Assembly: GCA_027019335.1 (NCBI GenBank)
Contig: JALUWV010000089.1
Span: forward strand, 1 to 37,059
DNA length: 37,059 nucleotides
Direction of reading: 5' to 3'
DNA from: Sulfurimonas sp.
GTDB lineage: Bacteria > Campylobacterota > Campylobacteria > Campylobacterales > Sulfurimonadaceae
Shown: positions 1 to 1,096 of the stretch, piece after piece
Layout: every line of letters begins with the position of its first letter
Numbering within the stretch: position 1 is the first letter of the stretch
Position numbers and translations under genes: made by a program
Notes under the pieces: generated by a model
What the model was told of the DNA's origin: nothing
Database searches by the model: none
The model's input: only the letters and a program-made list of their open reading frames with translations

Positions 1-193
1 AAATATGTCTGTTATTTTTTTTGATAAAACTGCATTTTCTTGTTTGTTTGTTTGTTTGGATTTGTATCCACTTGTTGAAGGCATAAATTTGTAAGGTGTC
101 ATCAAGAACAATCACACCATTGTTGATTAAATCAACAATGCTATTGTCTAAAAGAGTTGGTCTAAAATCTGATTGAGTTTGCGTTTGAGCCAT
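1..193 (-). CDS. PAS-domain signalling protein (probable diguanylate cyclase), 5' end only, apparently frameshifted
   Basis: A minus-strand reading frame opens with ATG at 193, inside the 3' end of the CheC-like gene, and leaves the window at base 1. An AAAGGTGA ribosome-binding site lies about 10 bases upstream. The first about 45 residues include SIVDLINNGVIVLDDTLQIY and FNKWIQIQTNK, which resemble the start of the PAS domain found at the N-terminus of many Campylobacterota GGDEF proteins. After the CAAA repeat at 43-58 the open frame reads TRKCSFIKKNNRHI, which looks unnatural. The frame reached by removing one four-base unit reads QENAVLSKKITDIF, the expected continuation of such a PAS domain. 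No stop falls inside the window in either frame. The GGDEF assignment is inferred from context because that domain would lie outside. Confidence 0.6.
   Translation of the reverse strand, partial: MAQTQTQSDFRPTLLDNSIVDLINNGVIVLDDTLQIYAFNKWIQIQTNKQTRKCSFIKKNNRHI
43..58. repeat. Tetranucleotide repeat (TTTG)4, CAAA on the coding strand
   Basis: Four perfect TTTG units, with a partial unit (TTG) at 40-42, lie inside the coding part of the left-edge PAS gene. The unit is not a multiple of three, so gain or loss of one copy changes the frame. An eight-base T run (15-22, A8 on the coding strand) lies just downstream in the gene and is a second slippage-prone site. Confidence 0.85.
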
Positions 194-741
194 TGGATAG
201 ATTCACCTTTGGTAAGTATAAAAATTTCACCATTTATCTTTTGATCTTCAAAAATCAGCTGCGTATCTATAACAATAACTTGTGAGTAATTTTTAAAAGT
301 CTCTACATCACTAATTTCTGCTAAAGGAACATGAGAAATACTTGGGAGAGAAAAACTTACTTGTGTTTGCATCTCTTGTGCTAATCGTGTTGTAAGTGTA
401 GATGTAAGGATGTTCGTAAGTTCGAGAATGGCATCATCTAAGTCTTCATCAGATTCTATCTCTAAATGTTTTGCGAGATTTTTTGCACTTGTTGCATCTA
501 TAAAAAAAGCACTCTCTCCACTAAACTCTCCTGAAAAAGCTTGTGTTGAGAAAAAGTAACTTTGACTCTTTAAATGTTTAAATTGTTCTAAAAGCTCATT
601 GACAGGAATAACTGCTATATTTGGGATGCTTAAAGTAGCAAAGGCATCGAGCATTTCAGCGACAACTGCGGTTGCATTTCCATAAGCAATATTCATCAAC
701 TCTTGCAGGACATCTTTTTCATCTTCTGTGAGATTATACAT
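148..741 (-). CDS. CheC/CheX-family CheY-P phosphatase
   Basis: A 197-residue protein with two copies of the CheC-type phosphatase signature D-x3-E-x2-N-x22-P: D10/E14/N17/P40 and D103/E107/N110/P133. Two intact sites are typical of CheC rather than the single-site CheX. In the known family these residues insert into the receiver active site and speed hydrolysis of phospho-aspartate. The gene overlaps the upstream CheY-like gene by 8 bases and contains the start of the downstream PAS gene, so the three are probably translated as a coupled unit. The obvious substrate is the neighbouring receiver, which is an inference from position. No CheD is seen nearby. Confidence 0.85.
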   Translation of the reverse strand: MYNLTEDEKDVLQELMNIAYGNATAVVAEMLDAFATLSIPNIAVIPVNELLEQFKHLKSQSYFFSTQAFSGEFSGESAFFIDATSAKNLAKHLEIESDEDLDDAILELTNILTSTLTTRLAQEMQTQVSFSLPSISHVPLAEISDVETFKNYSQVIVIDTQLIFEDQKINGEIFILTKGESIQWLKRKLNQILDQLF

Positions 742-1096
742 TATTGATAAGTTCCAACAGTTCTTTCATCTTCTCTACATTGATGGGTTTTTGCATATGT
801 AGCTGCGCTCCAAGTGCGATAACTCTTTCCCTTGCTTTTTCTTGTATATCAGCAGAAACAACAATGACTTTTGCATTTTTATTGTGTTCTAAAAGTTTGG
901 GAAGGGCTTCATAGCCATCCATCACTGGCATGGTTAAATCTAAAAAGACGATGTCAACATTCTCTTTTTTCATCGTTTCAACAGCGACTAAACCATTTTC
1001 CGCTTGAAAAATTTCAGCTTCACCAACAGTGACTTTGAGTGATTTTATGAGGCTTAATCGTGCGAGTTTAGAATCATCGGTTACAAGATACTTCAT
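734..1096 (-). CDS. CheY-like single-domain response regulator
   Basis: A 120-residue stand-alone receiver domain. The acidic pair is D7/D8, the phospho-acceptor is D53 in FLDLTMPVMDG, the switch residue is S81 and the conserved lysine is K103. There is no output domain, so it probably signals by protein contact, as CheY does at the flagellar switch, or acts on the coupled PAS protein. The start is well supported by AAGGAAG six bases before the ATG. It is first in a three-gene overlapping unit. Whether it is the main chemotaxis CheY or a dedicated partner of the CheC-like protein cannot be told from sequence alone. Confidence 0.9.
   Translation of the reverse strand: MKYLVTDDSKLARLSLIKSLKVTVGEAEIFQAENGLVAVETMKKENVDIVFLDLTMPVMDGYEALPKLLEHNKNAKVIVVSADIQEKARERVIALGAQLHMQKPINVEKMKELLELINNV

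Follow-up and report, generated by a model that had tools for sequence, protein, structure and literature searches.

The sensor histidine kinase gene at the left end of the window (the whole 37,059-nucleotide stretch of Sulfurimonas DNA analysed here) has probably been interrupted in two ways at one spot, by a recent slippage frameshift and by the hit of an insertion sequence (IS), whether as an accident or as a polymorphism, within an operon that also encodes a CheY-like regulator and a CheC-type phosphatase. The most likely interpretation is that these cells just have a defective kinase gene. The window corresponds to contig C89 of G000, a metagenome-derived bin assembled from environmental DNA, which comprises 116 contigs and 1.84 Mb and is rated 84% complete with 4.9% contamination. 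The features on which the argument is based are the following:

1..193, minus strand: 5' part of the PAS-histidine kinase gene, with its ATG at 193; out of frame past the tract, it leaves the contig and resumes at base 112 of contig C8
40..58 (58..40), minus strand: CAAA tract, perfect period-4, 19 bp, 4.75 units; one unit shorter in the nearest relatives
Between 42 and 41, no strand: point corresponding to the IS junction on C8, where an ISAs1-family element joins the kinase gene; the window contig is uninterrupted there
33..41, minus strand: presumed 9-bp target duplication AAGAAAATG, its length borrowed from another copy of the element and a single junction being seen
148..741, minus strand: CheC/CheX-type phosphatase gene, intact; shares 46 bp with the start of the kinase gene
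734..1096, minus strand: CheY-like single-domain response regulator gene, intact

The phosphatase was assigned to the CheC/CheX family by domain search (Pfam CheX, E 2e-10; CheC, E 1e-7), and its sequence contains ELMN and ELTN, which we take to be the ExxN active-site motifs of CheC/CheX phosphatases. When intact, the CheY-like regulator, the CheC-type phosphatase and the PAS sensor kinase would be encoded together as a small Sulfurimonas operon, and gene order together with knowledge of the families suggests that the three proteins act in one pathway. Upstream of the operon, only 85 bp (1097–1181) separate cheY from a ribonucleotide reductase gene. In more distant relatives this interval holds FliW and a 121-aa gene without a known family; S012_93 (L057) retains the latter alone. 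A phage origin of the window was checked without a match.

The kinase gene continues on contig C8 of the same bin, where bases 112–152 are identical to window positions 41..1 in an exact 41-base overlap. A CAAA repeat of four whole units had been noted at 43–58 in the original prediction, and we find that the perfect tract spans 40–58. The number of units determines the reading frame of the gene, and the argument made in that prediction, that one unit fewer restores the true frame, proved right on leftward extension: the frame of the window itself, with 4.75 units, closes after 68 aa, while removal of one unit gives ...IQTNKQENAVLSKKITDIF in a frame that stays open on C8 for 354 residues and is shared by all relatives. 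The expected continuation into PAS-GGDEF was borne out only as far as the open PAS gene is concerned. Domain search of the C8 frame returned HisKA (E 2e-8) and HATPase_c (E 2e-17) and no GGDEF domain, so that the c-di-GMP output proposed for this gene has to be abandoned. The PAS match is weak and under the cut-off (E 6.6e-4, in ortholog L013). The gene is thus a PAS-HisKA-HATPase sensor histidine kinase. It is not FlgS, as judged from an NCBIfam FlgS score of 39.7 against a cut-off of 600. A thioredoxin gene directly follows the kinase on C8, in agreement with the gene order in relatives.

The tract, which encodes the peptide I-Q-T-N-K-Q, stands out against its surroundings. The expected number of CAAACAAACAAACAAAC occurrences in the window is 0.00, and in a 15-bp search CAAACAAACAAACAA occurred nowhere else in the entire 1.84-Mb assembly. 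The background of simple repeats was taken from 439 kb of genome stretches, in which the CAAA tract is the only tetranucleotide tract of at least 15 bp and other simple-repeat tracts are almost absent; 12 Markov simulations of the same size produced no tetranucleotide tract of at least 16 bp. CAAA tracts of 19 bases are found in four other Sulfurimonas genomes as well, at unrelated sites. At L120 (G041) and L123 (G132), tracts of 19 bp lie within open frames, one close to the beginning of a helicase-like ORF and the other towards the end of a 597-aa ORF. Elsewhere in the bin, a C9 run at bases 11022–11030 of contig C64 (L115) precedes a PAS-domain-like ORF by about 64 bp, and one further run of eight is present in C2; such runs are rare in the genome.

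The nearest relatives are two Sulfurimonas lineages represented by three contigs (L056, L057 and L077). The CheC protein is 92% identical in L056 and L057, and L077 overlaps one of the two close metagenome-assembled genomes over 211 bases with one mismatch. All three contigs carry ATCCAAACAAACAAACAAGAA, corresponding to 3.75 units, one fewer than in the window, with the kinase in frame, and no other ortholog aligned across the site shows a length change there. Of all sequences read, only the window's contig therefore has the extra unit. Of the copy-number comparison that had been proposed, agreement among the nearest relatives and an intact gene were found, at a value one unit below that of the window. 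Compared with the two nearest relatives, the C8 part of the kinase has a dN/dS of about 0.19–0.20 and no stop codon, which indicates that it was under constraint until recently and that any inactivation is recent. By a rough estimate from about two synonymous sites in the tract codons and the synonymous distances, which is not a test, it is not surprising that the relatives share an unchanged tract. In another Sulfurimonas genome (L015/L079, G013:C101) this kinase gene has a frameshift near residue 129 of the ortholog, through a true mutation or an assembly error, possibly a case of recurrent loss. The orthologs occur in two forms, of about 515 aa (L012, L014 and L017) and about 400 aa (C8, L013, L016 and L057); L012 shows a second PAS domain, and the shorter form is devoid of the extra stretch.

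Bases 1–111 of C8 are unlike the PAS gene and constitute the left end of a mobile element, which joins the kinase gene within the last partial unit of the CAAA tract. The element is present at eight places in the assembly, each time on a contig that ends inside it; the bin contains element ends only. These are 86% identical over 231 bp to a full copy in a related genome, which encodes an ISAs1-family transposase (NCBIfam transpos_ISAs1, NF033564, 150 bits; cut-off, 70) and is bounded by 16-bp terminal inverted repeats, its ends matching those in the bin. The element is an ISAs1-family insertion sequence. Contigs C106 and C78 are the two flanks of another copy and have the 9-bp duplication TATTCTTTA in common; base 1 of C106 and the end of C78 are probably neighbours across the element. 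The window contig passes the junction point for 41 bases without the element, reaching 32 bases beyond the presumed duplication, and hence represents the empty site. Searches of the bin with the other IS end and with the site pattern did not recover the PAS-side junction of the insertion, and the IS allele is consequently seen from one side only. The bin thus holds two alleles, an empty site with an extra unit and an IS insertion, each of which interrupts the kinase. Imprecise excision of the element was considered as the origin of the extra unit, but would need two additional bases (AC) that are present at neither IS end, which makes plain slippage the simpler explanation.

In the simplest history, some cells would have gained a unit by slippage and others acquired the IS. 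On the window's contig, slippage would have lengthened a short tract by one CAAA unit, with a predicted truncation at 68 aa, ahead of most of the PAS domain and the entire kinase, while in the C8 allele the ISAs1-family element would have entered the last partial unit of the tract. Both alleles appear to be real and recent and to belong to different cells within a mixed population, and the expected outcome is loss of the kinase input to the CheY-like regulator. It could instead be argued that the sequence exists in no cell, a faulty read or assembler branching between the alleles having produced the extra unit or the read-through at the tip of the contig. The extra unit is confined to the last 58 bases of one contig, which makes an artefact of assembly or reads conceivable; the tract adjoins an assembly join to a multi-copy IS, and the bin is incomplete and somewhat contaminated. 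Against this, the 41 bases beyond the junction are identical to C8, and a tract of 15–19 bp is far below common read lengths, a clean gain of four bases not being the usual short-read error. We consider such an artefact unlikely. A very improbable alternative is that no mutation is needed to restore the product, because RNA polymerase drops one A in some transcripts at an A8 run about 17 bases past the tract, which the window and C8 both contain. Loss of one A would return the longer allele to the kinase frame, so that some protein could be made from it. However, the run is A8 in L056 and L077 but only A6 in L057 and is therefore not conserved, eight A residues are at the low end of the run length for transcript slippage, and the IS allele would gain nothing from it.

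The original prediction regarded the tract as a possible phase-variable switch. In such a case, slipped-strand mispairing would reversibly move cells of the population between 3.75 units, with the kinase on, and 4.75 units, with the kinase off. The tract is located in the coding region and its copy number sets the frame, the relatives retain a perfect tract together with an open frame, and phase-variable kinase genes are known in the phylum, for example flgS of C. jejuni (PMC3930126). A dedicated switch would, however, require a mutable tract and variation among relatives. Both tract lengths are under the five units used as cut-off for calling phase-variable tetranucleotides in Campylobacter, and the survey that applied it found no such longer-unit tracts in that genus (PMC6321876). 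Furthermore, the nearest relatives have one copy number, the genome is poor in simple repeats, and chance may suffice to preserve a perfect tract that covers a few codons in an A-rich gene. The other allele in the bin carries an IS, which favours gene loss over a dedicated switch, and such a switch we regard as clearly unlikely; no report of this kind of phase variation in Sulfurimonas was found in the literature searched. Very doubtful, too, is the notion that the tract acts as a contingency site of low copy number and slow switching, silencing the kinase of a CheY/CheC module in a free-living sulfur-oxidising member of the Campylobacterota, and that it serves also as a preferred landing place for an ISAs1-family element; if true, the same signal could be lost heritably in two ways at a single spot. 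As a claim of phase variation, the locus would bring tetranucleotide switching to a free-living representative of the phylum, for which the evidence is insufficient. Should both alleles be real, one particular sensor kinase is being lost, or its loss selected for, in a natural Sulfurimonas population in which the adjacent genes for the CheY-like regulator and the CheC-type phosphatase remain intact; this would be a small natural case of two independent hits on one signalling gene.

The insertion agrees in all respects seen with known ISAs1-family elements, as regards the transpos_ISAs1 transposase of the related full copy, the 16-bp terminal inverted repeats and the 9-bp target duplication, which falls in the 8–10-bp range expected for the family, only the element ends being assembled in the bin. 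The tract resembles tetranucleotide contingency loci such as mod of Haemophilus influenzae in having a four-base unit within the coding region whose copy number sets the frame, but those loci have many more units and vary from isolate to isolate, whereas here 3.75–4.75 units are found and the number is constant among the relatives read. A further parallel is the phase variation of FlgS/FlgR in C. jejuni (PMC3930126), where, as in the present case, a short repeat changes in length and thereby disrupts a histidine kinase or response regulator gene of campylobacterotal signalling. The repeats in C. jejuni are homopolymeric and their reversion has been observed, unlike the short tetranucleotide tract described here, the longer form of which is seen once.
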